In this document: one piece after another, positions 10,703-37,696 of the stretch
Layout: every line of letters begins with the position of its first letter
Position numbering within the stretch: the stretch's first letter is position 1
NCBI RefSeq assembly: GCF_020723905.1
Contig: NZ_DYHZ01000004.1
Coordinates: 1 to 64,000 of the forward strand
Reading direction: 5' to 3'
Source: Anaerolinea thermophila
GTDB taxonomy: Bacteria > Chloroflexota > Anaerolineae > Anaerolineales > Anaerolineaceae
Length of the DNA stretch: 64,000 bases
The notes under the pieces: model-generated
Seen by the model: only the letters and a program-made list of their open reading frames with translations
What the model was told of the DNA's origin: nothing
Database searches by the model: none
Made by a program: the position numbers and the translations under genes

Positions 10703-11194
10703 ATGTTAAGCAAACGACTGCTTGATGAAATGAATACCCAGATCAAACTGGAACTGTACTCGGCTTACCTGTACCTTGCCATGGCGGCGCACTTTGAGGA
10801 GAATAACTGGGGCGGTTTTGCCAAGTGGATGGCAATGCAGGCAAAAGAGGAACAGGAACATGCCCTCAAGTTCTTTGAGTACATCCACGACCGAGGCGGC
10901 AAGGTGACCCTGCAAGCCATTGACGCTCCGCCCTCTGCCTTTGGTACCCCCGAGGAGATTTTCGCCGAGGTGCTCAAGCATGAGCAGAGCGTCACCGCAC
11001 GCATTCACCTGCTGTACAGCATCGCCGTGGAGGACAAGGACTACGCCAGCCAGGAGTTCCTCAACTGGTTCGTCAAGGAACAGGTCGAAGAAGAGAAGAA
11101 CGCCACCCAGGTGCTGGAATGGCTGAAGATGGCGGGCGGCTCGACCCCGGCGCTCTTCCAGATTAACGCCCTGCTTGCCCAGCGCGGAGGATAA
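10703..11194 (+). CDS. ftnA: Non-haem bacterial ferritin
   Basis: It oxidises Fe2+ and stores the mineral inside a 24-subunit cytosolic shell. The 163-residue protein has all ferroxidase-centre residues at their FtnA positions: E17, E50, H53, E94, Q127 and E130, plus Y24. It lacks a haem ligand, so it is not bacterioferritin. It has its own promoter and a strong Shine-Dalgarno, and ends before a perfect hairpin. A TerC-family metal-related membrane protein is convergent on the other side of that hairpin. Confidence 0.96.
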   Translation: MLSKRLLDEMNTQIKLELYSAYLYLAMAAHFEENNWGGFAKWMAMQAKEEQEHALKFFEYIHDRGGKVTLQAIDAPPSAFGTPEEIFAEVLKHEQSVTARIHLLYSIAVEDKDYASQEFLNWFVKEQVEEEKNATQVLEWLKMAGGSTPALFQINALLAQRGG

Positions 11195-11261
11195 CATTCC
11201 GGCGCACACGCCGACTGCCCGGCAAGCCCGTCGAGTCGAAGTGTGCCCCGCACACACAAGC

Positions 11262-11298
11262 ATCAACCGCCCGTGGAGAAAATCCACGGGCGGTTGAT
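11262..11298. terminator. Bidirectional terminator between ferritin and TerC genes
   Basis: A perfect 16-bp inverted repeat (arms 11262-11277 and 11283-11298) closes a 5-nt loop GAAAA. It lies between two convergent genes and can serve both. Confidence 0.85.
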
Positions 11299-11318
11299 GA
11301 TTCTTCATCCAGACATCA

Positions 11319-12176
11319 TCAGGCTTTTTCGGGACGCCGCGCGGCAAGCCGCAGGAGGTACCACAATCCGCGCAGAGGCGCCAGCGCCCAGGCGATGAAG
11401 GCGTTGACAATGCCAAACCCCTGACTGAGCCACACCAGCACCGGTCGGAAGATGCGCAGGAAGGGCAGATGCGCATACGCCAGCGAAAGGGCAATGATGG
11501 ACATGGAAATGCCAAAGCGCGCCCAGTCCGAAAACTCCATAATACCCAGTTCTTCCAGCACCAGTTCAATGCCGATGCTTAACACCAGAATGTACGCCGC
11601 CGACTTGAGAATCGGCTCGCGCTGGACCACGTAACTGAAAATACCCGCGGCAAAGCGCATCACCAGAATGCCGATGAAGACGCCCAGCATCACCACCAGA
11701 ATGTGATCGGAGAGCGACACCGCCGCCACCACGTTATCCAGGCTAAAGGCAAGGTCCATCAGTTCCACGTTCAGCACAGTGAGCCAGAAGCCCACCCGTC
11801 GCACACTCCGCACTTCGCCATCCTCTTCCGAGCCCTGCTCCCCTGGGGCGCTTAAGTCATCCAGCGCCAGACGGATGAGGTATGCCGCCCCCACCAGTTT
11901 TAACCACGGGTTGCGGATGATAAAACTGGCGGCGAGGAGCATCAGTCCGCGCCCCACATACGCCCCCAGCAAACCCACCCGCAGCGCTGCCAGCCGCTGC
12001 GGACCCAGCACACCGTCCAGCAAGTGTCCCACCCGCCTGAGTGCAGGGGGCCAGGGGATGGGGTCTTTATCGGACAGGGTGGAAACCATTGCGCCCAGCA
12101 CAGCGGCGTTATCAATGGAGAGGATGCCTTCCAGGAAGATCAACTGCAGAACGATGACCAGAAAAGAAAGGTCCAT
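11319..12176 (-). CDS. TerC-family integral membrane protein
   Basis: The 285-residue protein has about seven to nine TM helices. It carries two copies of the TerC hallmark acidic motif inside helices: EGILSIDNA near the N-terminus and ELMDLAFSLDNV near residue 145. TerC-family proteins are implicated in metal (notably Mn2+) export, some loading secreted metalloproteins, but this member's substrate is inferred. Unlike many TerC genes, I found no yybP-ykoY aptamer in its own 5' leader. The ATG has GGGAG 9 nt upstream. Confidence 0.85.
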   Translation of the reverse strand: MDLSFLVIVLQLIFLEGILSIDNAAVLGAMVSTLSDKDPIPWPPALRRVGHLLDGVLGPQRLAALRVGLLGAYVGRGLMLLAASFIIRNPWLKLVGAAYLIRLALDDLSAPGEQGSEEDGEVRSVRRVGFWLTVLNVELMDLAFSLDNVVAAVSLSDHILVVMLGVFIGILVMRFAAGIFSYVVQREPILKSAAYILVLSIGIELVLEELGIMEFSDWARFGISMSIIALSLAYAHLPFLRIFRPVLVWLSQGFGIVNAFIAWALAPLRGLWYLLRLAARRPEKA

Positions 12177-12405
12177 TTCTCGGCACTCCCATTGGAGGAT
12201 TCAGATCCCCACCGGAGGCGGATGGCAGTTTTGGCGCAGGATGGTACGCCTGGCACAGGGGGACATAAAAGCGTTTATAGCACAAATTCCGTACTTATAG
12301 GGAAAGATTAAGCCGAATTTCGGCAGGGTGAGGATATTCTTCCCACTCTCAGCGTGCGCATTGTAAAAGGTGGTTTACAATTCACATCAGAAGGAAGGTT
12401 TCACC

Positions 12406-21709: not shown

Positions 21710-23074
21710 CTACGGACTATCCAGAATAAACGGAATGGCAACCGTGTACAGCGCCTGATAGGACAGGTGTTCGCGCTGAAGGGTTTGCCCATCCCTGCCG
21801 CCAAAGAAGTGCAGGTAGTTACCATGCGCCACCAGCGCACCCTGCGCGCCCAGCGGAACAGGCGCAGAATCGAGCATTTGCCAGAGTCCGTCGGCAGGGG
21901 TGAAGACCCAGCCAGGCATATTGCCCGCGCCGCCGGAAGAGATCCCGCCCAGCAGATAAATGGAATTGATCAACCCCGCCGCGCTCATCTCCGCACGGGG
22001 CGCCGGCATGGCAGGCAGGGCTTCCCACACTGTGCCGCCGCTGGCTTCACGGGCGGGGTAATACGCCCACACCTCATCCAGGGCTTGACTGCCGTCGCTC
22101 CCGCCAAAGAGCAGAATACGACCCTCCACCGCAATGGCGGCGGCAAAGGCGCGCGGCGAGGGTAGAGGGGTGCGTTCTTCCCAGCGGTCGCTTTCAGGGT
22201 CGTAGGCATACACTGCCGCCGACGGCGATGTGCCATCCCAGCCGCCAAACAGATACAGATTGCCCTCAAAGGCGGTCAGCGCGTACCCTGCCAGCGCCTG
22301 AGGAAGGGGGGAGCGCGTCTGCCAGGTATCTGTGAGAGGACTGTACACTTCCAGCACCGTTGTGGGACGCCGGGCAGAGGTCATCCCTCCGGGCAGGTAA
22401 ATCTGCTCGCCCAGCCGCGCCGCCCCAATCTGGGTGACGGCGGTAGGTTTGCCGCTCAGCGCCTGCCAGGACTGGCTGGCAGGGTCATACGCCAGCGTAT
22501 CGTTGCTGATGCCGGTGGCAGTCTCGCCGCCAAAGAGGTACAGGCGCTCGTTGAAGGCAATCGCCGCCATGCCGGCGCGTCCCTCGGGCAGGGCGGGCAG
22601 GGCAGTCCAGCGCGGCGGAACAATGGGGGTGCCCTGCATCCCCGCCGGTGTGGGGGTCAGGAGTGTCGGGCGGGAGGCATTCCAGATCAACGCCCCCACC
22701 GCCAGCAGAATCAGCAACAGCGCCACCGCCAGCGCCCACGGATGCACTCCCCGCCGGACAGGGACGGGAAGGGCTTCGCCTTCCGACACCGTGGAGACCG
22801 GAAGAGGGCTTTCTGGCACAACGCCTTCCCCCTCTGCCGGTGAAGCCTCGGGAAGAGAAAGCCCCGGCGGGGTGATGCCATTTCGGATGGCATACAGGGT
22901 GGCTTCGGTGCGCGAAACCACCCCAATTTTGGCAAAGATGTTGCGCAGATGCACTTTAACCGTGTTGGGACTGATAGACAATGCCTGAGCAATTTCTTTG
23001 TTGGATGCGCCGGTTGCCACCAGACGCAAAATTTCCACTTCGCGTTCGCTCAGGGGCTCGTTGGGCAACTCCAT
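21710..23074 (-). CDS. Membrane-anchored LuxR-type HTH regulator with outer Kelch propeller
   Basis: The 454-residue protein has a LuxR/GerE HTH at residues 8-65 (LSEREVEILRLVATG, SPNTVKVHLRNIFAKIG). A Pro/Ser-rich linker follows, then one TM helix at about 112-132 preceded by VRRG (cytosolic side), and a six-blade Kelch beta-propeller (about 155-445, repeated LYLFGG and W motifs). Topology places DNA binding inside and the propeller outside, like ToxR-type one-component sensors. The ligand is unknown. The ATG at 23074 has no Shine-Dalgarno and lies 7 nt after TATAAT, so the mRNA is probably leaderless. Confidence 0.88.
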   Translation of the reverse strand: MELPNEPLSEREVEILRLVATGASNKEIAQALSISPNTVKVHLRNIFAKIGVVSRTEATLYAIRNGITPPGLSLPEASPAEGEGVVPESPLPVSTVSEGEALPVPVRRGVHPWALAVALLLILLAVGALIWNASRPTLLTPTPAGMQGTPIVPPRWTALPALPEGRAGMAAIAFNERLYLFGGETATGISNDTLAYDPASQSWQALSGKPTAVTQIGAARLGEQIYLPGGMTSARRPTTVLEVYSPLTDTWQTRSPLPQALAGYALTAFEGNLYLFGGWDGTSPSAAVYAYDPESDRWEERTPLPSPRAFAAAIAVEGRILLFGGSDGSQALDEVWAYYPAREASGGTVWEALPAMPAPRAEMSAAGLINSIYLLGGISSGGAGNMPGWVFTPADGLWQMLDSAPVPLGAQGALVAHGNYLHFFGGRDGQTLQREHLSYQALYTVAIPFILDSP

Positions 23075-23081
23075 GCCGTTT

Positions 23082-23087
23082 ATTATA
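23082..23087 (-). promoter_or_regulatory. -10 element giving a leaderless LuxR-Kelch mRNA
   Basis: Minus strand TATAAT ends 7 nt before the ATG at 23074, placing the transcription start at or next to the start codon. No Shine-Dalgarno exists. Confidence 0.65.
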
Positions 23088-23166
23088 CCGTCAACTTGCC
23101 GGGGAGGTGTTCACCTCTGGCAGTCCCCCCCTTGCCAAGTTGGGTAATCCTGTCAGGAGAAAGCGC

Positions 23167-24639
23167 ATGATATTTGATATAATTTATCAGAAAACAGCCT
23201 TAGATAACATGGAAATCTTTCAATCTTTTTTCCAGCAAAACGAAACTTTTCTTGAATTTATTTATGGGTTGACTTTTTTCGTTCTGGGTGTCGCCATTTC
23301 CCTGCAATCTCGCTATTCTTCCCGCCTGGAACTTGCCCGCAGTCTGCGCTGGCTGGCGGCATTTGGCTTTTCCCACGGGTTGTATGTGTGGGGAAAATCG
23401 TTTATACCCATTCAAGCAACCTATCTGTACCCTTCTTTAGCCCATGGGGTACATTTTCTACACCTGTTGCTCCTTATCCTTTCCTATGTGTGCCTTTTTG
23501 AGTTCGGTATTGCCCTGCTCCGCCCCTTCCGCATAAGTAAAACGCTGAACTGGATCCTGGCAGGATGGCACACACTTTTCACCCTGTTGATGGTGAGTGT
23601 CTCTCTGTCTACCCCTTTCGATTTAAAAACCTTTCATGACCACATTGAGGCTCTGGCAGGCTACATGATTGCCTTTCCCAGCGGGTTATTCGCCGCATAT
23701 GGCTTGCGTGAACAAACCTATCGCCTGATTGCCCCACTGGAGGCTCCTTACGTGGTAAGCATGTTGCGTACTGCTGGAATATCTCTGGCGGTATTCGGCG
23801 TTCTGCGTGGTTTTGTTCCCCCACCCGTACAGTTCTTTCCCGGCAACTGGCTGAATCTTCTTACCTTTGAGAATACTTTAGGTATCCCCGTGCTGGTATT
23901 CCTGGTGCTGGCTGGCGGTGTGTTGCTGTTTTCGATGGTACGCGCGCTGGAGGTGTTCCACGTAGAAATGGAGCGCACTATTGAACACATGGAGCAACAA
24001 CAAATCTTGCTGGCAGAGCGCGAACGCATCGCCCGCGAACTGCACGACAACACCCTGCAAATGGCATATACCGCAGGACTTCTCATAGACTCCGCACGAA
24101 AACTGGCTGATCCCGACAGCGCCATCGCCCTGCGATTGGATCGGGCAGTACAGGCACTGAACGAAGTCATTGCCGAATTACGCCGCAATATGAACACGCT
24201 ACACTCTCCACTGACCGGGGAAGCCCCCCGGCAGGCCATCCGCCAGTTGACAGACGACCCCCGTTTCCGCACCCTGGTTGATATTCATCTGGAAGATGCC
24301 CTACCCGAAAACTGGACGCTTCCTCCCCGGCACTCTGGGCATTTGCTGGCTATTTTGCAAGAAGCACTTTCCAACGTGGTACGCCATTCAGGTGCCAGCC
24401 GCGTAACCCTGCATCTTCACCAGGACGAGAAAGGGAACACCCTGCTGATTCTGGAAGACGATGGTACAGGATTGCCCGCTCAGATCCGTGAAGGATATGG
24501 ATTACGCAACATGCGCGAGCGTGCCCGAATGATGGGGGGAACCCTCACTTTGAGCAACCGCTCTCCCGAAAAAGGCACCCGCCTGGCCCTGGTAATTCCA
24601 CCAGAAAGAACTTCTCCACCAGAATGGACTCGAGAATGA
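23167..24639 (+). CDS. NarL-type sensor histidine kinase
   Basis: The 490-residue kinase has about seven or eight TM helices in its first 260 residues and no large outer domain. A coiled stretch, a HisKA_3 phosphoacceptor region (ERERIARELHDNTLQ, H293) and a HATPase_c domain (N box EALSNVVRHS, G box DDGTGLP and GYGLRNMRERA) follow. It phosphorylates the response regulator encoded next, with which it overlaps by ATGA. ATG 23167 has AGGAG 7 nt upstream; the frame is open further upstream but that part is not conserved-looking. The signal is unknown, perhaps membrane-related. Confidence 0.9.
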   Translation: MIFDIIYQKTALDNMEIFQSFFQQNETFLEFIYGLTFFVLGVAISLQSRYSSRLELARSLRWLAAFGFSHGLYVWGKSFIPIQATYLYPSLAHGVHFLHLLLLILSYVCLFEFGIALLRPFRISKTLNWILAGWHTLFTLLMVSVSLSTPFDLKTFHDHIEALAGYMIAFPSGLFAAYGLREQTYRLIAPLEAPYVVSMLRTAGISLAVFGVLRGFVPPPVQFFPGNWLNLLTFENTLGIPVLVFLVLAGGVLLFSMVRALEVFHVEMERTIEHMEQQQILLAERERIARELHDNTLQMAYTAGLLIDSARKLADPDSAIALRLDRAVQALNEVIAELRRNMNTLHSPLTGEAPRQAIRQLTDDPRFRTLVDIHLEDALPENWTLPPRHSGHLLAILQEALSNVVRHSGASRVTLHLHQDEKGNTLLILEDDGTGLPAQIREGYGLRNMRERARMMGGTLTLSNRSPEKGTRLALVIPPERTSPPEWTRE

Positions 24640-25298
24640 ACCGCATTCGAATTGTCATTGTTGATGATCATGCATTGGTCCGCATAGGATTGACAACCCT
24701 CATCGGTGACCGCCCCGACATGGAAGTGGTAGGTGAAGCCAGCGACCTTTCCCAGGCTCTGCGCGTCATCCAGGAAACTCAGCCACATATCGTATTGATG
24801 GATATTCGTATGCCTGGTCAGAGCGGCATCGAAGCCACCCATCAAATCGTTCAGCGTTTTCCACATACCCGCGTCATCATCCTCACTTCTTTTATCGAAG
24901 ATGACCTGGTGATGCGCGCTATTCATGCAGGTGCGGCAGGTTACATACTCAAACAAGCCGATAACGACGTCCTGCTCAACGCCATTCAGACGGTAGCACG
25001 TGGCGAATCTCTGCTCGACCCCACTACCACAACGCGCCTGCTAAACTATGTACGGGAAATGGAACGCAAAGCGGAACAAAATGTTTTCAGCAGCCTTTCA
25101 GATCGCGAGTTAAGCGTTCTGGCAGAACTTTCAAAGGGCAAGACCAACGCCGAGATTGGCAAAACCCTGCACCTCAGTGAAAAAACCGTTCGTAACCACG
25201 TCAGTGTGATCCTGGAGAAACTGCACCTCTCCAACCGTGTCGAACTGGCGACCTACGCAGTAGAGCATCATATCTTCGACCTGATAAAAAAAGGATAA
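24636..25298 (+). CDS. NarL/FixJ-type response regulator
   Basis: The 220-residue protein has a receiver domain (acidic pair DD about residues 9-10, phospho-acceptor D56 in VLMDIRMPG, Lys in YILKQA) and a LuxR-type HTH (about 150-210, LSDRELSVLAELSKGKTNAEIG). It is the partner of the upstream kinase; ATG 24636 overlaps the kinase TGA, so translation is coupled. A hairpin terminator follows. Confidence 0.94.
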   Translation: MNRIRIVIVDDHALVRIGLTTLIGDRPDMEVVGEASDLSQALRVIQETQPHIVLMDIRMPGQSGIEATHQIVQRFPHTRVIILTSFIEDDLVMRAIHAGAAGYILKQADNDVLLNAIQTVARGESLLDPTTTTRLLNYVREMERKAEQNVFSSLSDRELSVLAELSKGKTNAEIGKTLHLSEKTVRNHVSVILEKLHLSNRVELATYAVEHHIFDLIKKG

Positions 25299-27993: not shown

Positions 27994-28014
27994 TGCACCC
28001 TCATTCCCGCTCTT

Positions 28015-28038
28015 TCTCCCCGCGGGAGAGGCTTTTTT
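28015..28038 (+). terminator. Terminator after the histidine phosphatase gene
   Basis: TCTCCC-CGC-GGGAGA stem (28015-28029) is followed by GGC and six T. Confidence 0.7.
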
Positions 28039-28096
28039 CTTCAGGAAAGCAGGGCTGTATCCTTGTGGTGCTTTTGTGATACACTAAAAGTATCGT

Positions 28097-29692
28097 ATGA
28101 GCGCCTCGGTTCTGGTTGCCACGCCGCACGCCGCCTTTGGCGAACTGATCCGCCTAAGCCTCGAAGAGGAAGGGCGCTATCAGGTGCGCCTGGTGAGCAG
28201 TGCCCGCGAAGCCGCCGCCGCAGTGGTCAACCCCTACTACCGCATCGTCATCCTCGACTGCGACCTGCCGGATCTGCCTCTTGCCGAACTGAGCGCTGTC
28301 CTTCTGCACGACCACCCCGGCTTGAAACTGGTGCTGATCCCCCCCGAAAACGACCCTCAGCATCCTGCCGTACGCGACATCCCCGCGCACGGATACCTTT
28401 CCCGCCCCTTTTACCTGCCCGATTTACTCGACCTGCTGGCAGGGCTGGATAGCGCCGAGCCCCCGCCGCCCGCCGGAGAGGAAGGACTGCCCGTCTGGGT
28501 GGACGAACAGGCTCTGGAACATCTGCTGGCAAACAGCACCGCTGAAGGCGGAATAATTCTGCACCGCAGTGGCGCGCAGGTTGTCCGCACCTCCGCCGCC
28601 GAAGCCCTCAAGGCGCAGATCGAACGCCTGTGGGAGATGGAAGAAGCCACCGATGTGGTGCGCTTTGCCCGCCTGAGCGAAGAACTGGGCGAACGCATCC
28701 TTTACGTTACCGCGCTGACCCCGCACATGGCGCTGGGGCTGGTATACCCGCTCAAAACGCCTCTCAGCCGCATCCGCACCGAAGCCCTGCAGATGACCCG
28801 CACCCTCACCAACGGCAGCGCACCCGCCTCCCCGGAAAAAACCGTCCCTCCTCAGCCCCGGGCGGCACCCGCCTCCCCTGCGGCATGGCTCCCCGAAACC
28901 CTGCCGCCTGAGGAAGAAACCGCAGAAGAAGACCTGCCCGAACAAATCTCGCTGGCAGATTTGCTGGGCGACGTGCCCCCGCCCGACCCCCAGCCCGCCA
29001 CAGAGTGGGTGCCGGAGATTGACCTCTCCCTGCCGCGCGTCTCCGTGGAGACGCCCGCCCCTCCCATCCACGAAGCGCCTGCTGTGGAAGCACCTCCGCC
29101 TCCCGAACCCGAACCCGCCCCCGCGCAGTCTGCCAGCGCCGAAACCCTGCCCGCCCTCCTGCCCGAAGAAGAGGAACTGGCGGTCAACCATGCCACCGTC
29201 CTGCCCGATTTAACCAGCATCCAGCAAATCGAACCGGTCTCCACCGCGTTCAGCCAGATTTTCTACACCTGCGTGCTCATCCCGCGCCTGCCTTCGCACT
29301 TCCTCACCGGCGCGCTGGGCGAACAGGTCAGCCAGCGCGTCCAGCAGTTGTGCCTGGCGTTTGGCTGGCGGCTGGAAGGCATTGCCGTACGCCCGCAGTA
29401 CATGCAGTGGTCGGTGCAGGTCAGCCCGTCCATTGCCCCGGCGACGCTCATCCGCGTGATTCGCCAGCGCACCTCCTCCTTCATTTTTGAGCACTTCCCC
29501 GCCCTGGCAGAGGAAAACCCCTCCGGCGATTTCTGGGCAAGCGGCTACCTCATCGTCAGCGGTCCCCAGCCGCCCTCGCCGCGCCTCCTGCGCGACTATA
29601 TTGAGGAAACCCGCCGCCGTCAGGGCGTCCTGTTGCCATCTTCCTCTGACAATTTGCCGCGGCTTTCCTCATCCACGGACACATCCCATTGA
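28097..29692 (+). CDS. Pseudo-receiver / Roadblock-like / IS200 TnpA-like fusion protein
   Basis: The 531-residue protein has four parts. Residues 1-115 are a receiver fold with D54 in VILDCDLPD, but the acidic pair near residues 8-9 is A-T and the signal Lys is Arg (LSRPF). Residues about 135-240 look like a Roadblock/LC7 domain (GGIILHRSGAQVV...). Residues about 245-370 are a Pro/Glu-rich linker. Residues 389-506 match the IS200/IS605 TnpA (Y1, REP-associated) fold: FYTCVLIPR, FEHFPALAEEN, FWASGYLIV, DYIEET. The HUH site is Y435-M-Q437 instead of His-x-His, while the nucleophile-position Tyr is kept (Y501). It is therefore a domesticated, non-cleaving DNA-binding domain by inference. No Shine-Dalgarno is evident. 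polA follows 18 nt later. Confidence 0.85.
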   Translation: MSASVLVATPHAAFGELIRLSLEEEGRYQVRLVSSAREAAAAVVNPYYRIVILDCDLPDLPLAELSAVLLHDHPGLKLVLIPPENDPQHPAVRDIPAHGYLSRPFYLPDLLDLLAGLDSAEPPPPAGEEGLPVWVDEQALEHLLANSTAEGGIILHRSGAQVVRTSAAEALKAQIERLWEMEEATDVVRFARLSEELGERILYVTALTPHMALGLVYPLKTPLSRIRTEALQMTRTLTNGSAPASPEKTVPPQPRAAPASPAAWLPETLPPEEETAEEDLPEQISLADLLGDVPPPDPQPATEWVPEIDLSLPRVSVETPAPPIHEAPAVEAPPPPEPEPAPAQSASAETLPALLPEEEELAVNHATVLPDLTSIQQIEPVSTAFSQIFYTCVLIPRLPSHFLTGALGEQVSQRVQQLCLAFGWRLEGIAVRPQYMQWSVQVSPSIAPATLIRVIRQRTSSFIFEHFPALAEENPSGDFWASGYLIVSGPQPPSPRLLRDYIEETRRRQGVLLPSSSDNLPRLSSSTDTSH

Positions 29693-29710: not shown

Positions 29711-32527
29711 ATGCCCCCTGTGCTGTATCTGATTGATGGACATGCCTTAGCCTATCGCGCTTTTTTTGCCCTCACCACCTCTGGAATGCGCCTTTCCACT
29801 GCCAGCGGCGAGCCCACCGCCGGGGTGTACGGCTTTGCCAGCGTGCTCCTGCGCCTGCTGGAGCAGGAAAAGCCCGAGTATCTGGCGGTGGCTTTTGACG
29901 GCGGTTACTCCTTCCGCGACCAGATTTACCCCGAGTACAAAGCCACCCGCGCCAAAATGCCCGACGACCTGCGCGCCCAGATGGAGCGCATCCGCGAACT
30001 GGTGGATGCCTTCGGGTTCCCCCGCCTGGAGTTGAACGGCTACGAAGCCGACGATATCATCGCCTCCATCGCCCATCAGGCGGTCAAACAGGGTTTCGGC
30101 GCCAAGATCATCACCGGCGACCGCGACCTTCTGCAACTGGTGGATGAGCGCATTGCCGTCAATCTGGCGGGGAACAAACTCAGCGAAGCCAGAGACTTTA
30201 TCCGCCCTGAAGACGTGCAAGCCTACCTGGGCGTGCGTCCCGATCAGGTGGTGGATTTCAAAGCCCTGGCAGGCGACCCCTCCGACAATATCCCCGGCGT
30301 ACGCGGTATCGGCGAGAAGACTGCTCTTGCCCTGCTGAAGGACTACCCACATCTGGAAGACATTTACGCCCACCTGAACGAACTGCCCGCCAAAGTTCGC
30401 CAGAAACTGGAAGAAGGGCGCGAAGCGGCGTTCATGAGCCGCGAACTGGCAACCATTCAACGCGACCTGCACATCACCCTGGAACTGGCACAAGCCCGCA
30501 CCGATGCCATCCCCGTGGAGAGGGTCATTGAGTTCTTCCGCCGCATGGAGTTCCGCTCGCTCATCACCCGTCTGGAGAAAATCTTCGGCGTCTCCGCCAG
30601 CAATGCCCCACAGCAGGTTCCCCTCATCCCCCCGGAACCGGCGGCAGTGGGTCAGTTATCGCTCTTTGGCGAAGAGATGGTGCGGGTGGGCATCCCGCCC
30701 CTGCACGACCTGAACACCGTGGTGGTGAACACCCCCGAAGCGCTGGCAGACCTGTGTGTACACCTGGCGCAAGCCGAATGGATTGCCCTGGACACCGAAA
30801 CCACCTCCACCGACCCGCTGACCGGCACGCTGGTGGGTATCTCGCTGGCGGTGGAGCCCGGCACAGGCTACTACCTGCCGGTAGGACACCTCACCGCCGA
30901 ACCCCAACTGCCGCTGGAGAACATTCGCACAGCCCTGTCGCCCTTTCTCAATGACCCCGGCAAGCCCAAAGTGGGACAAAACCTTAAGTACGATCTGCTG
31001 GCGCTCCGCCTGGCAGGCATCGAGGCGCAGGGGCTGGCGTTCGACACCATGATCGCCGAGTGGCTGGTGGATCCCGCCTCGCACTACCTGGGACTGAAAG
31101 AGATGGCAGAGCGTTACCTGGGGGTGCAGATGACCCACATCGAGGAACTCATCGGCACGGGAAAGAACCAGCGCACCATGGCGCAGGTGCCCGTTGCTCA
31201 GGTTGCCCCCTACGCCGCCGCCGACGCTGAGATTGTCCTGCGGCTCAAGCCCATCCTGGAAGAGCGCATGCTCAAAGCGGGCGTCACCCGCCTGTTTCAG
31301 GAAGTGGAAATGCCGCTGGTGCCGGTGCTGGCGGAAATGGAGTGGAACGGCATCCTGCTGGATACGCCCTTCCTTCAGAGGATGAGCGTGGAACTCAGCC
31401 AGCGCCTTGCCGAGATCGAAAAAGAAATTTACGCCCTGGTGGGACATCCCTTCAACATTAACTCCACCCAGCAGTTATCGCGGGTGCTCTTTGAGGAACT
31501 GCGCCTGGAGCCGCCCGACCGCCGCAAGAAGACCAGCGCCGGGCTGTACTCCACCTCGGCAGAGGTGCTGGAAGAATTGCGCGGCAAACATCCGGTGGTG
31601 GATTTAATCCTCGAAAACCGCGAGTTGAGCAAACTCAAATCCACCTATGTAGACGCCCTCCCTCAGCAGGTCAACCCGCGCACGGGCAGGGTGCATACCC
31701 GCTTCAACCAGACTGGCTCGGTCACGGGACGGCTGGCATCTTCCGACCCCAACCTGCAGAACATCCCCACCCGCACCGACCTGGGTCGGCAGGTGCGCAA
31801 AGCCTTCATCGCCGACGAAGGCTGGGTTCTGCTCTCGGTGGATTACTCGCAAATCGAACTGCGCATTGTGGCACATGTGGCAAACGATGAAGCCATGCTG
31901 GCGGCGTTCCGCGCCGGGCAGGACATCCACGCCGCCACGGCGGCGGCGGTGTACGGCGTACCGCTCGAGGCGGTCACCCGCGAGATGCGCCGCCACGCCA
32001 AAGCCATTAACTTCGGGCTGATCTACGGCATGAGCGCCTTTGGCTTGAGCCGTTCCGCCGACCTGACTCTGGCAGAAGCCGAAAACTTCGTCAAGGCATA
32101 CTTCGATCAGTTCCCCGGCGTCAAACGCTACCTGGACGACCTGCGCCGCCGCGCCGCCCGTGAGGGCTACGTGGAAACCCTGCTGGGGCGCCGCCGCTAC
32201 TTCCCCAACCTGAAGAACCCCGCCAGCCCGGCACTCAAAGCCCGCGAGGAACGCGAAGCCATCAACGCCCCCATTCAGGGCACAGCCGCAGACATCATCA
32301 AACTGGCCATGATTCGCCTGCCCGATGCCCTGCGCGCGGCGGGCAGTCGCGCGCGCCTGCTGTTGCAGGTGCACGACGAACTGGTGCTGGAGGTCCCCCG
32401 CGAAGAACTGCCGGAGACAGCGAAACTCGTCCAGCGCGTCATGGAAACAGCCTTCCCGCTCCAGATTCCCCTCACCACCGAAGCCCGCTGGGGAATCAAC
32501 TGGGGAGAGATGACGCCCCTCTCATGA
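29711..32527 (+). CDS. polA: DNA polymerase I
   Basis: The 938-residue replication and repair polymerase has a 5'-3' exonuclease (about 1-300), a 3'-5' proofreading domain (about 340-530) and a family A polymerase domain. The proofreading site is intact: D361-T-E363 in ALDTETT and the late YAAADAEIV. Polymerase motif A is VDYSQIELR (D711) and motif C is VHDELVL (D889). The O helix RRHAKAINFGLIYGM is present. ATG 29711 has GGAG 7 nt upstream; an in-frame GTG four codons earlier overlaps that site. It is probably co-transcribed with the TnpA-like fusion gene. Confidence 0.97.
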   Translation: MPPVLYLIDGHALAYRAFFALTTSGMRLSTASGEPTAGVYGFASVLLRLLEQEKPEYLAVAFDGGYSFRDQIYPEYKATRAKMPDDLRAQMERIRELVDAFGFPRLELNGYEADDIIASIAHQAVKQGFGAKIITGDRDLLQLVDERIAVNLAGNKLSEARDFIRPEDVQAYLGVRPDQVVDFKALAGDPSDNIPGVRGIGEKTALALLKDYPHLEDIYAHLNELPAKVRQKLEEGREAAFMSRELATIQRDLHITLELAQARTDAIPVERVIEFFRRMEFRSLITRLEKIFGVSASNAPQQVPLIPPEPAAVGQLSLFGEEMVRVGIPPLHDLNTVVVNTPEALADLCVHLAQAEWIALDTETTSTDPLTGTLVGISLAVEPGTGYYLPVGHLTAEPQLPLENIRTALSPFLNDPGKPKVGQNLKYDLLALRLAGIEAQGLAFDTMIAEWLVDPASHYLGLKEMAERYLGVQMTHIEELIGTGKNQRTMAQVPVAQVAPYAAADAEIVLRLKPILEERMLKAGVTRLFQEVEMPLVPVLAEMEWNGILLDTPFLQRMSVELSQRLAEIEKEIYALVGHPFNINSTQQLSRVLFEELRLEPPDRRKKTSAGLYSTSAEVLEELRGKHPVVDLILENRELSKLKSTYVDALPQQVNPRTGRVHTRFNQTGSVTGRLASSDPNLQNIPTRTDLGRQVRKAFIADEGWVLLSVDYSQIELRIVAHVANDEAMLAAFRAGQDIHAATAAAVYGVPLEAVTREMRRHAKAINFGLIYGMSAFGLSRSADLTLAEAENFVKAYFDQFPGVKRYLDDLRRRAAREGYVETLLGRRRYFPNLKNPASPALKAREEREAINAPIQGTAADIIKLAMIRLPDALRAAGSRARLLLQVHDELVLEVPREELPETAKLVQRVMETAFPLQIPLTTEARWGINWGEMTPLS

Positions 32528-32599
32528 GGCACATTTCAGTTTCCCAACAGTTTGGCAAATACGGGTTGGGTTGCAAAATTTCATGTTATTCTTAAGCAT

Positions 32600-34936
32600 A
32601 TGGCAGGGAATCAGGCAGTTTTCCAACAGGCAATGAATCAGGGGCATTCCGCCGCATGGGATCAGGACTGGGTAAAAGCCGCCCAGTTTTATGCACAGGC
32701 GCTGGAAGAAATGCCCGATAGCCCGCTGGCGCTCTCCAGCCTCGGGCTGGCGTATTTTGAACTGGGCGAGTTGGAGCGGGCGCTGGAGTGTTATCAGCGT
32801 GCCTCTAAAATTGCTCCCACCGACCCCGTTCCCTACGAGAAGTTAACGCGCATTTACGAGCGCATGGGCAAAATCAAAGAAGCCAGCGAGGTGTGCCTGC
32901 AGGCGGCAGAACTGCACCTGCGCGCCCGCGATGTGGACAAAGCCATCGAAGACTGGGTGCATGTGCTCAGCCTGTACCCCGAACACCTGCCTACCCGCCA
33001 GCGGCTTGCCGCCGTGTATGAGCGCATGGGGCGCAAAATGGAAGCCATCAATGAGTATATCGCCATTGCCAGCATCTTCCAGCGCACCGGCGATATGCCC
33101 CGCGCGCTAAAATCGGTGGAGTATGCCCTGCGGCTGATGCCCGAAAGCCAGGAAGCCCGTTTTGCCCTGCACATGTTGCGAACCAATCAACTCCTGCCGC
33201 CGCCCTCTCGCCCCAAAGGCAGCACCGGACCCATCCGCATGGCGTCGGTGCGCAGTGAGGAAAAGGGCAAGGGCGAACGCAAAGCCGAAGGCGCGGGCTT
33301 GAACCCGGTAGAAGAAGGGCGCCAGAAGGCACTGGAGCAACTGGCATCCCTGTTGTTTGATCAGGTGGAGGAAACCCAGCGCGAAGCCGCACCGCGCAGT
33401 GGGCTTGCCGCGCTGGCGCGCGGGGTGACCGGTCCGCTCAGCATGGCGGGCGACCGCACCCGCATGGCACTGCACATTGGGCAGGCCATCGATTCGCAAA
33501 TGCAGGGCGATGTCACCAATGCCATTGCCGAACTGGAACGCGCCGCCGATGCCGGACTGCGCCACGCCGCCCTGTACTACGACCTGGGCTACCTGCTGGC
33601 AGATCGAGACGGCGACAAAGCCCTGCGCTACCTGCAGGAAGCCGCCAAACACCCCGAATACCTGCTGCCCGCCAGCCTTCTGCGCGGAAAAATTTTGCTG
33701 GACAAAGGAATGCTCCCCGAAGCCGCGGCGGCGTATCTGCAGGCGCTGGCGCAGGCCGATGTAGCCCTGGTGCCCGAAGCCCATCAGGAAGCCCTGCGCC
33801 AGTCCTATGAGCCGCTCATTGATGCGGTTGCCAGCGAGGAAGACCTGAAAAGCCTGGAAACTCTGTGTCTTCAGGTGCGCGACCAACTCCTGCGCCCCGA
33901 CTGGCGCGATTTGTTGACCAAAGCCCGCGAGAATTTACCACAATCGGCGCCCGATGCCGCCCCCTCGCCTGTCGCCGAGATTTTACTGGAAACGCGCGGC
34001 GGTCAGGTGGTGGAAGCCATCGCGCGGGTGCGGGAACTTTCTCAGATGGGGCTTTCGCGCACCGCCCAGGAAGAAGCCTTTTACGCCCTGCAACTGGCGC
34101 CCCATTACCTGCCCCTGCACGAACAGATTGGCGAACTGCTCCTGCAGGAAGGGCGCAGGGAAGACGCCAGCCGCAAGTTTCAGGTGGTTGCCGAACTCTA
34201 TGCCGTGCGCGGTGAAGTTGCCCGCGCCGCGCGCCTTTACCGCCGTGTGCTTCAGATGAACCCCATGGATCTGGCAGTGCGCGAGCAACTGATCGAACTG
34301 CTGGTCACGCAGGAACGCATTGACGAAGCCCTGGAAGAGTACATGGAACTGGCAGACGCCTACTACCGCCTGGCAGAACTGGACAAAGCCCGTCAGACCT
34401 ACCTCAACGCGTTGAAGATTGCCCAGCAGTCCCGCCAGAACCGCACCTGGGGAGTGGAGATTCTGCTCAAGGTGGCGGATATTGACATGCAGCGGCTCAA
34501 TTTCCGGCAGGCTCTGCGCATCTACGAACAGATTCGCACCATCCAGCCCGATAACCCCCAGACCCGCCTGCAACTGGTGCAGTTAAACCTGCGCATGGGG
34601 CAAGCCTCCGCCGCCCTGGGCGAGGTGGATTCGTTCATCAACCTGATGGAAAGCACCGGCAGGCGCGCCCAGGCAGTACAGTTCCTGCAGGACCTTATCG
34701 CCGAAGCGGGCGCCAATGTGGACCTGTACCGCCGTCTGGCAGACCTGTACGTGCGCGAAGGGCGCATCGAGGAAGGCGTGGCGCAGATGGACGCCGCCGC
34801 CAATCTGTATCTGGACGAAGGCAAAGTGATGGAAGCCATCAACCTGCTGGAGACCATTGTCTCGCTTAACCCGCCCAATGTTCAGGACTACCGTGAAGCC
34901 CTGAACACCCTCAGGCGCGACAGTCTGCGTCGGTAA
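32600..34936 (+). CDS. Large tetratricopeptide-repeat protein
   Basis: The 778-residue soluble protein is made almost wholly of TPR-type helix pairs (e.g. ALSSLGLAYFELGELERALECYQRA). A low-complexity basic linker near residues 210-240 splits an N-terminal group of about five repeats from a long C-terminal group. There is no signal peptide or catalytic domain, so it is probably a scaffold for protein complexes; its partners are unknown. ATG 32600 has no Shine-Dalgarno and a weak TATTCT -10 lies just upstream, so the mRNA could be leaderless. It sits between polA and the HD-GYP gene. Confidence 0.85.
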   Translation: MAGNQAVFQQAMNQGHSAAWDQDWVKAAQFYAQALEEMPDSPLALSSLGLAYFELGELERALECYQRASKIAPTDPVPYEKLTRIYERMGKIKEASEVCLQAAELHLRARDVDKAIEDWVHVLSLYPEHLPTRQRLAAVYERMGRKMEAINEYIAIASIFQRTGDMPRALKSVEYALRLMPESQEARFALHMLRTNQLLPPPSRPKGSTGPIRMASVRSEEKGKGERKAEGAGLNPVEEGRQKALEQLASLLFDQVEETQREAAPRSGLAALARGVTGPLSMAGDRTRMALHIGQAIDSQMQGDVTNAIAELERAADAGLRHAALYYDLGYLLADRDGDKALRYLQEAAKHPEYLLPASLLRGKILLDKGMLPEAAAAYLQALAQADVALVPEAHQEALRQSYEPLIDAVASEEDLKSLETLCLQVRDQLLRPDWRDLLTKARENLPQSAPDAAPSPVAEILLETRGGQVVEAIARVRELSQMGLSRTAQEEAFYALQLAPHYLPLHEQIGELLLQEGRREDASRKFQVVAELYAVRGEVARAARLYRRVLQMNPMDLAVREQLIELLVTQERIDEALEEYMELADAYYRLAELDKARQTYLNALKIAQQSRQNRTWGVEILLKVADIDMQRLNFRQALRIYEQIRTIQPDNPQTRLQLVQLNLRMGQASAALGEVDSFINLMESTGRRAQAVQFLQDLIAEAGANVDLYRRLADLYVREGRIEEGVAQMDAAANLYLDEGKVMEAINLLETIVSLNPPNVQDYREALNTLRRDSLRR

Positions 34937-35038
34937 GAAAATTTGTTACCATTTTGTAACCATTTTCTCATCAATTCGTAAGGTAATTCCCACTGTTTTG
35001 GGTTAAAATTGCCCCGGTTTAGGGGTGGTTTCATTTTT

Positions 35039-37696
35039 ATGGCGGGTTCTCTGTTTTCCAATCTCTCCAGAGATGCCTTATGGTCGGCAAAATCTCCGAC
35101 CCCGGCAGACTCCCGATTCTCCTATCTGGACATTCTCATTCTGACCACCGGCGGCGGGATTGCGGCAGGCGTACTGGCGCTCTGGCTGACCATGCGCACC
35201 GCCCCCCTGTTTCTTTTCCTGAACGGCATTTTCTTACTGGTGCTGGGGGGCATCTGGGTTGCCCGCTCCCGACTGTCTTCAAGGGTCATCCGCTTGCTTT
35301 TGTTTGGGGTGTTCTGGGTCCATTACACCATTATCATGCTCTTTACCGGCGGGGTGCACAGCCCCATGGCAGGGATGATGCTCATCCTGATTTACGTTTC
35401 CGGGCTGCTTCTTGGCTTCAAAGGCAGTCTGGTGTCCATTGTGCTTGGGGCAGGCGTGCTGTTGCTCTCCCTCTCGGTGGAACAGGCAGGGCTCCTGCCC
35501 TCTTCCACTGTGCCCATCACCCCCGTAATGGAGGTACTTTTCCGATTTCTCATCGGTGCCATTTTCATTCTCATTGTGTACTTCACCAACCACATGCTGG
35601 CAAATTACCAGCGCATGCTGGAAATAGAACTGGCGCAACGCCAGGCGACGCAGAACGCGCTTGCCCTGCAAACCGCCCAGATGCAGATGGTGCTGGAAAA
35701 GAGTTTCGACGCCTTCATCCTGATTGATGAAACCGGCCGGGTGGCGGAATGGAATCCGGGCGCAGAACGCCTGCTGGGCTACCCCCGCGCAGAGATGCAG
35801 GGGCAGGCGACTGTGAAAGTTCTCGAACACATTGCCCTGCCGGCTTACCGCACCCCTCCGGCGCTGTCCAAACTGACGCGGGCATTCACAGAAGCCCTGA
35901 AAACCGGCAAAAGCCCCTTTTTCAACCGGAAAACCGAAGCCCGTTTTCTGCATGCCAGCGGGCAGGTGCGCATATGTGAACTGAACAGTTTTGCCCTGCC
36001 CACCCCGCAGGGATACCGCATTGGCATGGTGTTGCGCGATGTGACCGTCGAACGCGAAGCGCAGGAACAACTGCGCCTGCGCCTCAAACACCTCGAAGCC
36101 CTCAACCGCATTTCCACGCTGGCGCGCGAACAGTCGCAGGTGACCGTCTTCCTTGAAAGGGTCATGGATATCCTGCTGGAGACGCTGGACGCCCCGGCTG
36201 GCGGTATCGCTCAGGTGGATCGAGAGAATCAATGCTTCCAGGCGCTGGCAGTGCGCGGCTGGGCAAAACCCTTTGAGGGCAAAACCTTCCCTCTGCGCGG
36301 CGGGCTGGTGGAAAAAGCCTTTGAAAGGGATTATCCCATTTTCAGCGAAGACCTGCACAACGACCCAGGTTCCAACAAAGACATCACCCGTCTGATTCCG
36401 GCAGGCTGGCGCGCCGTACTGGCTCCTTTACGCGCCGGTCAGGAACATCTGGGCGTACTGCTGATTTCAGTGGAACACCCCCGCCTCTTCACCGAGGCGG
36501 AAGTCCGCCTGGTCCAGACCGCGGGTGATATCATCGGGAGCGTCCTGCGCCGCGCGCAACTGGATGCAGAAGTGCACACCCGCCTGGAGCAACTGGCATC
36601 CCTGCACGAAATTGACACTGCCATTTCCTCCAGCCACAACCTGAAAGCCACCGCCAACATCCTGCTCCAGCAGTGCCTGCGCACGCTTAAAGTGGATGCC
36701 GCCCTGCTGTACGAATTTGACCCCCTCCATTTCCACCTCGATTGCGTTGCCACGATGGGATTGAACACCACCCGCCTGGAACACATCCGCGTGCGTCCGG
36801 GCGAATCGCTGGTGGGCAAAGCCATGCTGGAAGGCAAACTGAGCGGCGGAAAGGTAGAATGGACAACCCTGCCCGAAGGCTCCCACGACCGTCTGATGTG
36901 GGAAAAAGGCTTCCAGCAGATTTTTACCGTCCCGCTGGTCAGCAAATCCCGAGTGGTGGGGGTGCTGGAAGTGTGCCGCCGCAAAGTCTCTCCCGCGCCG
37001 CAGGAATGGCTGGAACTGCTGAACACCCTGGCGGGACAGGCGGCCATTGCCATCGAAAACGCGCGCCTGTTTGAGGATCTCCAGCGCACCAACGCCGAAC
37101 TGACCACCGCCTACGATGCCACCCTGGAAGGCTGGGCGCTGGCGCTGGGACTGCGCGACAGCAACACCGAAGACCACACCCGTCGGGTGGTGGAAGCCTC
37201 CGTAGAACTGGGTAAAGCCATGGGCTTGAGCCACGAAGACCTGATTCAACTGCGCCGCGGCGCCATTTTGCACGACATCGGCAAACTGGGCATTCCCGAT
37301 ACCATCCTGCTCAAGCCCTCCTTCCTCACCGAAGAAGAGCGCGAAATCATGCGCCGCCACACCCTGTATGCCCGCGAATGGCTAGCGCGCATCCCCTACC
37401 TGCGCCCGGCAATGGATATCCCCACCTTCCATCACGAGCACTGGGACGGGAGCGGTTATCCCTACGGCTTACGTGGCGAGCAGATTCCGCTGGCGGCGCG
37501 CATCTTCTCAGTCGTGGACGTGTGGGACGCGCTCTCCACCGACCGCCCCTACCGCAAAGCCTGGCCCCGCGAAAAAGTCCTTCAGTACATTCAGGCACAG
37601 GCTGGTTTGCAGTTCGACCCGCAGGTGGTCAAAACCTTTGTGCAAATCATTGACCGCGTCGAAAAAATTCTGGAAAAAGGGCATTTTGTCCCCTGA
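35039..37696 (+). CDS. Membrane PAS-GAF-GAF-HD-GYP cyclic-di-GMP phosphodiesterase
   Basis: The 885-residue sensor has five or six TM helices (about 30-190), a PAS domain (about 220-340), two GAF domains (about 360-500 and 515-670) and an HD-GYP domain (about 690-870). Metal and signature residues are present: HDIGK at H745-K749 and HHEHWDGSGYP from H798. The GYP variant here reads G806-Y807-P808. It should hydrolyse cyclic-di-GMP in response to signals bound by PAS/GAF. ATG 35039 has GGGGTGG about 9 nt upstream. Together with the GGDEF/EAL protein at 357 it shows c-di-GMP signalling in this organism. Confidence 0.93.
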   Translation: MAGSLFSNLSRDALWSAKSPTPADSRFSYLDILILTTGGGIAAGVLALWLTMRTAPLFLFLNGIFLLVLGGIWVARSRLSSRVIRLLLFGVFWVHYTIIMLFTGGVHSPMAGMMLILIYVSGLLLGFKGSLVSIVLGAGVLLLSLSVEQAGLLPSSTVPITPVMEVLFRFLIGAIFILIVYFTNHMLANYQRMLEIELAQRQATQNALALQTAQMQMVLEKSFDAFILIDETGRVAEWNPGAERLLGYPRAEMQGQATVKVLEHIALPAYRTPPALSKLTRAFTEALKTGKSPFFNRKTEARFLHASGQVRICELNSFALPTPQGYRIGMVLRDVTVEREAQEQLRLRLKHLEALNRISTLAREQSQVTVFLERVMDILLETLDAPAGGIAQVDRENQCFQALAVRGWAKPFEGKTFPLRGGLVEKAFERDYPIFSEDLHNDPGSNKDITRLIPAGWRAVLAPLRAGQEHLGVLLISVEHPRLFTEAEVRLVQTAGDIIGSVLRRAQLDAEVHTRLEQLASLHEIDTAISSSHNLKATANILLQQCLRTLKVDAALLYEFDPLHFHLDCVATMGLNTTRLEHIRVRPGESLVGKAMLEGKLSGGKVEWTTLPEGSHDRLMWEKGFQQIFTVPLVSKSRVVGVLEVCRRKVSPAPQEWLELLNTLAGQAAIAIENARLFEDLQRTNAELTTAYDATLEGWALALGLRDSNTEDHTRRVVEASVELGKAMGLSHEDLIQLRRGAILHDIGKLGIPDTILLKPSFLTEEEREIMRRHTLYAREWLARIPYLRPAMDIPTFHHEHWDGSGYPYGLRGEQIPLAARIFSVVDVWDALSTDRPYRKAWPREKVLQYIQAQAGLQFDPQVVKTFVQIIDRVEKILEKGHFVP

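Follow-up and report, generated by a model that had tools for sequence, protein, structure and literature searches.

A putatively dead IS200/IS605-type transposase domain fused to receiver and Roadblock folds is encoded beside polA in Anaerolineae

Introduction

TldRs, the nuclease-dead TnpB regulators, illustrate how a dead protein of the IS605 family can be turned into a regulator of its host. They are RNA-guided and have the unrelated fold of TnpB, whereas the protein described here contains a TnpA domain. Its residues 386-504 share both the fold of, and clear homology with, TnpA of IS200/IS605 elements (2ec2, 2f4f, IS608, ISDra2). It differs from these transposases in belonging to a family that lacks the HUH motif and does not conserve the tyrosine, in carrying Thr in place of the Gln, in its single copy and its fusion to receiver (REC) and Roadblock domains, and in its position adjacent to polA. 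Like TnpAREP proteins, or RAYTs, it is a domesticated relative of TnpA; TnpAREP/RAYT proteins keep HUH and Tyr, with several subclasses tied to REP repeats (PMC6006769, PMC8266576), whereas the HUH/Tyr core is missing here. A survey that took HuH and Tyr as the characteristics of TnpAY1 proteins retained the 722 of 924 sequences having them, set aside sequences without this core as probably non-functional, and discarded unexpectedly long ones (PMC6006769). These core and length filters would have removed a dead fusion family, and the terms "receiver" and "response regulator" do not occur in the text of the survey.

The fold of MglB and other Roadblock/LC7 proteins is shared by residues 132-241 of our protein, although these residues have no Pfam Robl_LC7 match, form part of a fusion, and have no known GTPase partner. 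In the RomR-MglB-MglA polarity module of Myxococcus, receiver and Roadblock parts likewise belong to one signaling circuit, but as separate proteins. We know of no TnpA domain in that module and of no link between it and polA.

Here we analyze a fusion gene within a 64,000-nucleotide stretch of Anaerolinea thermophila DNA (contig NZ_DYHZ01000004.1), hereafter the window. A first-pass annotation, made from the letters alone, had proposed that the gene joins a domesticated TnpA domain to receiver and Roadblock-like parts in an undescribed architecture. Domesticated transposases are already known; in the literature searched, which included only a minority of subscription papers, we found no paper describing a dead TnpA in a REC-Roadblock protein beside polA. 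Beyond that annotation, we report a predicted polA-TPR operon, conservation of the architecture across the class, and a locus in which paralogues adjoin genes for an Mrr nuclease and a histidine kinase.

Results and Discussion

The window protein combines receiver, Roadblock, and TnpA folds

Features of the locus are listed in Table 1. Pfam Y1_Tnp matches residues 386-504 with an E value of 4.1e-11 and 43.5 bits (cut-off 23); the NCBIfam IS200 transposase model gives an E value of 1.9e-12, yet its 47.5 bits lie below the equivalog cut-off of 55. A sequence search of the PDB returned the IS200-type transposases 2ec2 and 2f4f. An AlphaFold2 model of the full protein, built from a 34-row alignment, contains separate blocks for the receiver (pLDDT 90-97), a Roadblock-type topology (residues 137-238), and TnpA (residues 391-510, pLDDT 93-98), with pLDDT below 50 over most of the linker at 241-384, the length of which is very variable among members. 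Because the full-length pTM is 0.38, the relative placement of the domains carries no meaning. In a Foldseek search of the PDB with this model, ranks 1-29 were TnpA or annotated-transposase chains (E from 7.7e-9), and CheY-like receivers were among the chains below them. Pfam added no domain to the extra length of the four long family members scanned, and the window protein had no match in PADLOC. Profile matches and models together identify residues 386-504 as a homologous Y1 fold of IS200/IS605 TnpA. The first-pass annotation had placed this fold at residues 389-506, where the structure model does contain it at high pLDDT, and its proposal that this fold is joined to a Roadblock-like part and to a receiver lacking key residues agrees with the models and Pfam.

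Table 1. Coordinates of features at the fusion gene and its flanks in the window
Feature	Position	Strand	Basis
REC-Roadblock-linker-dead TnpA fusion gene (TnpA part predicted dead)	28097..29692	+	Open ORF, 531 aa
Degenerate receiver, residues 1-118	28097..28450	+	Pfam Response_reg below cut-off; AF2 fold
Roadblock/LC7-fold domain, residues 132-241	28490..28819	+	AF2, Foldseek, VIA vs 3leq
Pro/Glu-rich linker, residues 242-384, mostly predicted disordered	28820..29248	+	pLDDT
Short linear motif SLADLLGDVPPPDP, residues 285-298	28949..28990	+	Pattern [LIFMWV]x(2,5)PxP[DEN]P
TnpA (Y1) domain, predicted catalytically dead, residues 386-511	29252..29629	+	Pfam; Foldseek
Degenerate HUH motif, Y435-M436-Q437	29399..29407	+	Alignment to 2ec2/2f4f; family alignments
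Former nucleophile position Y501 and T505 replacing metal-ligand Q	29597..29611	+	Family alignments
polA, DNA polymerase I, 5'-3' and 3'-5' exonuclease domains	29711..32527	+	Likely ATG
Gene for TPR-repeat protein, third in the predicted operon (uncertain start codon)	32552..34936	+	
Terminator-like hairpin 5' of fusion gene	28010..28041	+	Consensus only
Terminator-like hairpin 3' of TPR gene	35006..35041	+	Consensus only

The Pfam receiver match spans residues 5-113 with an E value of 3.2e-5, below the Pfam cut-off. The window protein retains the phospho-acceptor D54 and has T9/P10, P82, and R103 elsewhere in the site, at what we take to be the places of the acidic pair, the T/S, and the Lys, respectively; the acidic pair, T/S, and Lys are thus absent, as the earlier description of a receiver with D54 but without other key residues had it. 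D54 is conserved in 31/34 members from the window's order (hereafter order-level; one E and two gaps in the rest) and in 16/18 members from elsewhere in the class (class-level). K103 occurs in 13/34 and 6/18 of these, and 10 of the 18 class-level members have D at position 9. The alignment and model indicate a real but degenerate receiver; D54 together with the class-level D9 and K103 would also fit a phosphorylatable receiver in some lineages, especially among class-level members.

Modeled alone with AlphaFold2, the Roadblock part reached a pLDDT of 86 and a pTM of 0.81; MglB and Roadblock proteins ranked first in Foldseek (E 4.2e-5), and VIA-align superposed 95 aligned residues on 3leq (Z 13.2, rmsd 2.3). 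Pfam Robl_LC7 (PF03259) was absent from the matches of the window protein and of 34 members at E values up to 1, and the only PF03259 match in the window genome lies on a different contig. As this profile does not match, the Roadblock-like assignment made earlier is carried by fold evidence.

These N-terminal folds suggest an alternative in which the protein acts in signaling and has no more than its promoter in common with polA: input would arrive at the receiver, the Roadblock domain would meet a small GTPase, and the dead TnpA would serve as a dimerization block. The conservation of D54 and the histidine kinase adjoining the paralogues described below are consistent with such a role, but in the order the phosphorylation site has other residues at most of its partner positions, no GTPase gene was recognized among the unsystematically annotated neighbors of the fusion gene, and linkage to polA is far above that to any other neighbor. 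Nor does GTPase co-occurrence help: an Arf profile matched in 61/61 genomes with or without the fusion gene, with many of the frames being other GTPases, and is for this reason uninformative about a partner. We regard this alternative as rather unlikely.

In one genome, a true Robl_LC7 gene is divergently oriented about 0.7 kb from the fusion gene (L063/G027, contig C322, 3822-4091). In the window, about 3 kb upstream of the fusion gene (22981-25298), there is a HisKA_3 histidine kinase gene with an overlapping gene for a LuxR-type-looking response regulator; we did not see this linkage widely conserved.

The linker contains a recurrent proline-rich motif (Table 1), found in 81 of 144 linkers, not thinned for relatedness, against a mean of 8.05 and a maximum of 12 in 20 shuffles, and, when whole proteins differing in their C-termini are counted, in 68 of 123. 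In the class-level set it occurs in just one of 18 members, L076, at unlike places. The motif looks like a docking peptide for a further partner.

The HUH motif of TnpA is lost across the sampled family

In the alignment to 2ec2/2f4f, the HUH histidines correspond to Y435 and Q437 and the nucleophile to Y501, so the window protein lacks the metal-binding HUH motif of IS200/IS605 TnpA, consistent with the replacements recognized in the first-pass annotation. Both histidines are present in none of the 77 relatives sampled (51 order-level, 18 class-level, and 8 single-domain members) and in none of the 77 rows of an overlapping set drawn from named relatives, query included. H, H, and Y are all kept in 18 of 21 ordinary stand-alone TnpAs from the same class in the same alignment, these controls being 20 chosen short-frame matches and L034_6.

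Of the 51 order-level members, 29 have F, 21 have Y, and one has L at position 501; of the 18 class-level members, 17 have F and one has Y there. Y occurs in 5 of the 8 single-domain members and, in the named set, which is dominated by near relatives, in 59/77 rows, with F in the remaining 18/77. Four residues past the tyrosine, the window protein has T505, and Q is found in 3/51 order-level and 7/18 class-level members. According to the survey, the Gln of the class 1 Y---Q arrangement helps metal binding in IS608 TnpA (PMC6006769); a conserved Tyr with Gln four residues on is not a feature of the family. Given that Y and F interchange at 501, Y501 is no conserved catalytic remnant: the earlier statement that this tyrosine is kept is correct for the window protein but loses its significance for the family, in which F is as common. 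Judged by these alignments, catalytic HUH is gone in every sampled member.

The fusion family spans the class and its TnpA part is under purifying selection

Near genomes with a match at E <= 1e-5 number 46 of 61, the window's own included; these comprise at least one genome with only an ordinary TnpA (G011, L034_6) and two with REC-Roadblock matches without TnpA (G037, G051). Among named species, relatives occur in Anaerolinea thermolimosa and Longilinea arvoryzae. A single-protein scan of genome contigs yielded 160 pattern stretches and no relative; a later search yielded 166 relatives, of which 80 were kept as the named set, with a member called in 76 of the 80 loci. From 41 stretches (40 loci and the window) we obtained 38 genes with a TnpA domain, L041, L044, and L049 giving none, and aligned 34 of the 38, leaving out the ordinary TnpA L034_6, the single-domain L072_9, and the short L035_7 and L050_5. 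L098, in the second locus set, gave no gene call. Genes were called by a greedy longest-ORF script, which makes the starts, the gaps, and any small ORFs in between approximate.

Elsewhere in the class, the order receiver-Roadblock-TnpA is shared by all 18 class-level members, which were picked from long frames; this answers the call of the first-pass annotation for a search of Chloroflexota for the architecture. In the window's order, most of the long stretch without a match separates Roadblock from TnpA; in 17 of the 18 class-level members, most of it separates receiver from Roadblock, L093 being the one with the order-like placement. Matches in 159 of 396 class genomes mix the fusion family with ordinary TnpAs and are not a family count. 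With a Roadblock profile, 26 of 301 genomes in a phylum sample matched, 24 of them inside the class and two, with weak and short matches, outside it. Conservation across a class argues that the fusion is not a chance product.

In a 98-row tree, built on few columns and with several long branches, a branch with 100/100 support separates the ordinary TnpAs from the other rows, for which a single domestication suffices. Over the last 150 aa, dN/dS was approximately 0.25, 0.19, 0.09, and 0.11 in the four pairs with dS < 2 (a fifth had dS > 2), indicating that the TnpA part is under purifying selection. In the window genome the fusion gene is the sole Y1_Tnp match over the cut-off; with one copy, a 531-aa fusion, and fixed synteny, it does not resemble a short, mobile element. 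Its single copy, class-wide occurrence, and purifying selection bear out the earlier view that the TnpA domain is domesticated. The Pfam transposase name and the Y501 of the window protein could be read as signs of an active or recently active transposase, or of an insertion decaying in the polA leader, but the single copy and purifying selection, with HUH lost in 77/77 and a class-wide architecture, make such a reading almost certainly wrong.

The fusion gene is linked to polA

The stop of the fusion gene lies 18 nt before the likely polA ATG. Counting the window, polA follows within approximately 0.5 kb on the same strand in 32/36 order-level loci and in 15/15 more, giving 47/51 combined; because of the approximate longest-ORF calls, the distance is given no more finely than within 0.5 kb. 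Three of the four exceptions have polA 2.7-3.6 kb downstream, and one has no polA in the stretch. Class-level loci have polA close (about 0.5 kb, same strand) in 7/18 cases and within 4.4 kb in two more, with none in the stretch in nine. In the named loci, which overlap the first sets, polA lies within 0.7 kb in 65/76; one locus is at a contig end, and of the ten others three have polA 1.1-1.3 kb away. A TPR gene follows 2.8-3.2 kb downstream, behind polA, in 25/36 order-level loci, and clustering of neighbors at the same loci gave counts of 37 for polA, 26 for the TPR gene, and 11 for the next cluster. We therefore predict that the fusion gene is tied to the polA transcription unit, although operon linkage does not prove physical partnership with Pol I. 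The terminator-like hairpins flanking the three genes are supportive only, as 16 such sites were found against a mean of 7.2 in shuffles.

Where polA lies 2.7-3.6 kb downstream, the genes in between follow no shared pattern; in these three loci they encode a methionine synthase, a DUF4332 protein, and an Eco57I-type methylase. At the class-level locus L088, a gene for a TIR protein with two FHA stretches (11131-12390) lies two genes downstream of the fusion gene on the opposite strand.

We also checked 18 genomes without a match and found polA in 15 (nearly full length in 14, cut by a contig end in one); polA is present in genomes without the fusion, so Pol I itself does not need the fusion protein. 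Gene calling in the 15 corresponding stretches recovered polA in 14 and showed a gene upstream of it in 13; of these genes only that of L129 matches the family profile, weakly (E 3.4e-6). The genes directly 5' of polA in L119 and L129 (171-221 aa, small genomes; L119 judged by eye) look like Roadblock-only remnants.

L041 (8955-9914) and L049 (8799-10109) encode REC-Roadblock proteins of 320 and 437 aa, respectively, without a TnpA match (family f2 within the order), and in both the gene overlaps the start of polA. These loci indicate that the link to polA is independent of the TnpA part, that the TnpA module is dispensable, and that REC-Roadblock may be the core of the protein, with TnpA an attached reader.

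Basic positions of TnpA are partly retained in the order, and the domain is acidic elsewhere in the class

Position 399 is Arg in 21/21 ordinary TnpAs and P, S, or T in 42/51 order-level members; the arginine is absent from nearly all members, and the basic residues at 400 and 482 are mostly lost too. Positions 397 and 456, basic in 20/21 and 21/21 TnpAs, are each R in 42/51 order-level members; in the class-level set, 397 is R in 10/18 and 456 is K in 6/18. The median net charge of the domain is +7 in ordinary TnpAs, +3 (mildly basic) in order-level members, and -7 (acidic) in class-level members. On these grounds, binding of single-stranded or branched DNA in the window's lineage is possible but doubtful; protein binding or dimerization alone is likelier there, and a DNA-binding function across the whole class appears less likely still. 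The first-pass annotation's idea that a single-strand or hairpin DNA-binding module was recruited into a signaling protein thus survives as regards the fused TnpA domain, whereas the binding it implied is weakened by the loss of Arg399 and the acidic class-level domain.

An alternative role that would depend on such binding is that of a structure-specific sensor: the dead TnpA would grip single-stranded DNA, hairpins, or forks without cutting them and bring Pol I or a signaling complex to lagging-strand or repair sites. The retained fold, the linkage to polA, and the arginines and positive charge of the order-level domain are in keeping with this, as is the affinity of IS608 TnpA for fork-like DNA and its presumed contact with the sliding clamp, as reported in the survey (PMC6006769). 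Arg399 and the other basic residues are mostly gone in the order, however, class-level domains are acidic, the HUH metal ligands are lost, and some polA-linked homologues have no TnpA. The absence of TnpA beside polA in L041 and L049 tells slightly against the sensor, which we consider unlikely.

We instead favor, as the probable explanation, a scaffold or adaptor without catalytic activity that arose by exaptation of TnpA and is tied to Pol I. It builds on the three folds, the loss of HUH in all sampled members, the class-wide architecture, the linkage to polA, and purifying selection. Exaptation of an IS200/IS605-type TnpA, most simply as a single event in an ancestor of Anaerolineae, would have made it the C-terminal module of a protein otherwise composed of a degenerate receiver and a Roadblock domain and encoded in the polA unit. 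As a binding module, the dead TnpA would keep its fold and probably its dimeric state; docking of proteins or dimerization may fall to Roadblock and receiver, and the linker motif may dock a further partner. With REC-Roadblock as its core and TnpA as the attached reader, the fusion protein would position or regulate Pol I where DNA is replicated or repaired, perhaps together with the TPR protein.

Sequences lacking the HUH/Tyr core are, in this family, conserved across a class, fused to signaling-type domains, and tied to polA, which suggests that an enzyme of a jumping gene has become a fixed housekeeping part. Should the protein act on Pol I, a widespread repair enzyme would have a lineage-specific regulator; should it read DNA, the HUH fold would serve there as a non-catalytic DNA sensor.

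Single-domain paralogues recur beside an Mrr nuclease and a histidine kinase

A single clade of eight single-domain dead TnpAs (144-219 aa) lies within the polA-linked genes of the order (98/99), which identifies them as duplicates stripped of the other domains. Of 14 short rows, L243 and L244 are ordinary TnpAs with both histidines, and the other 12 lack them. Seven of these 12 (L072, L095, L111, L112, L114, L239, and L241; family f12) are followed on the same strand by genes for an Mrr-type nuclease and a histidine kinase, with a labeled TPR protein between the two in six; the remaining five comprise one tandem neighbor of a counted row, two at contig ends, and two with other neighbors. Pfam identifies the nuclease as Mrr in L111 and L095 and, in these two and L114, names the TPR protein and the 7TM-PAS-GAF kinase; the other labels are from BLAST to L111. 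The locus sometimes holds a protein of 433-448 aa (no Pfam match in the one scanned), and the Mrr gene of L111 matches the PADLOC candidate-defense models PDC-S02. In two settings, then, a dead TnpA has a DNA enzyme and a TPR protein as neighbors, which, TPR genes being common, is a hint only. The Mrr-kinase locus offers a second testable system.

Proximity to a candidate-defense nuclease, together with the dead TnpA fold and the lack of another Y1_Tnp match over the cut-off in the window genome, might suggest a decoy, a dominant-negative TnpA that blocks IS200/IS605 elements. We consider this very improbable: a fixed fusion to REC and Roadblock and synteny with polA are unlike a decoy, and the fusion coexists with ordinary TnpAs in some genomes, for example G259 and G134. 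A broader idea, in which the dead TnpA is a reusable reader that senses single-stranded or branched fork DNA, relays its state through Roadblock and receiver to Pol I and the TPR protein, and acts as a stripped paralogue at a kinase-controlled Mrr locus in an undescribed DNA-damage or defense circuit, seems improbable, and the L041/L049 result tells slightly against it also.

In a further genome (L113, G369), a single-domain dead TnpA adjoins genes resembling those for chemotaxis and the flagellar motor, as judged by eye from the starts of their sequences.
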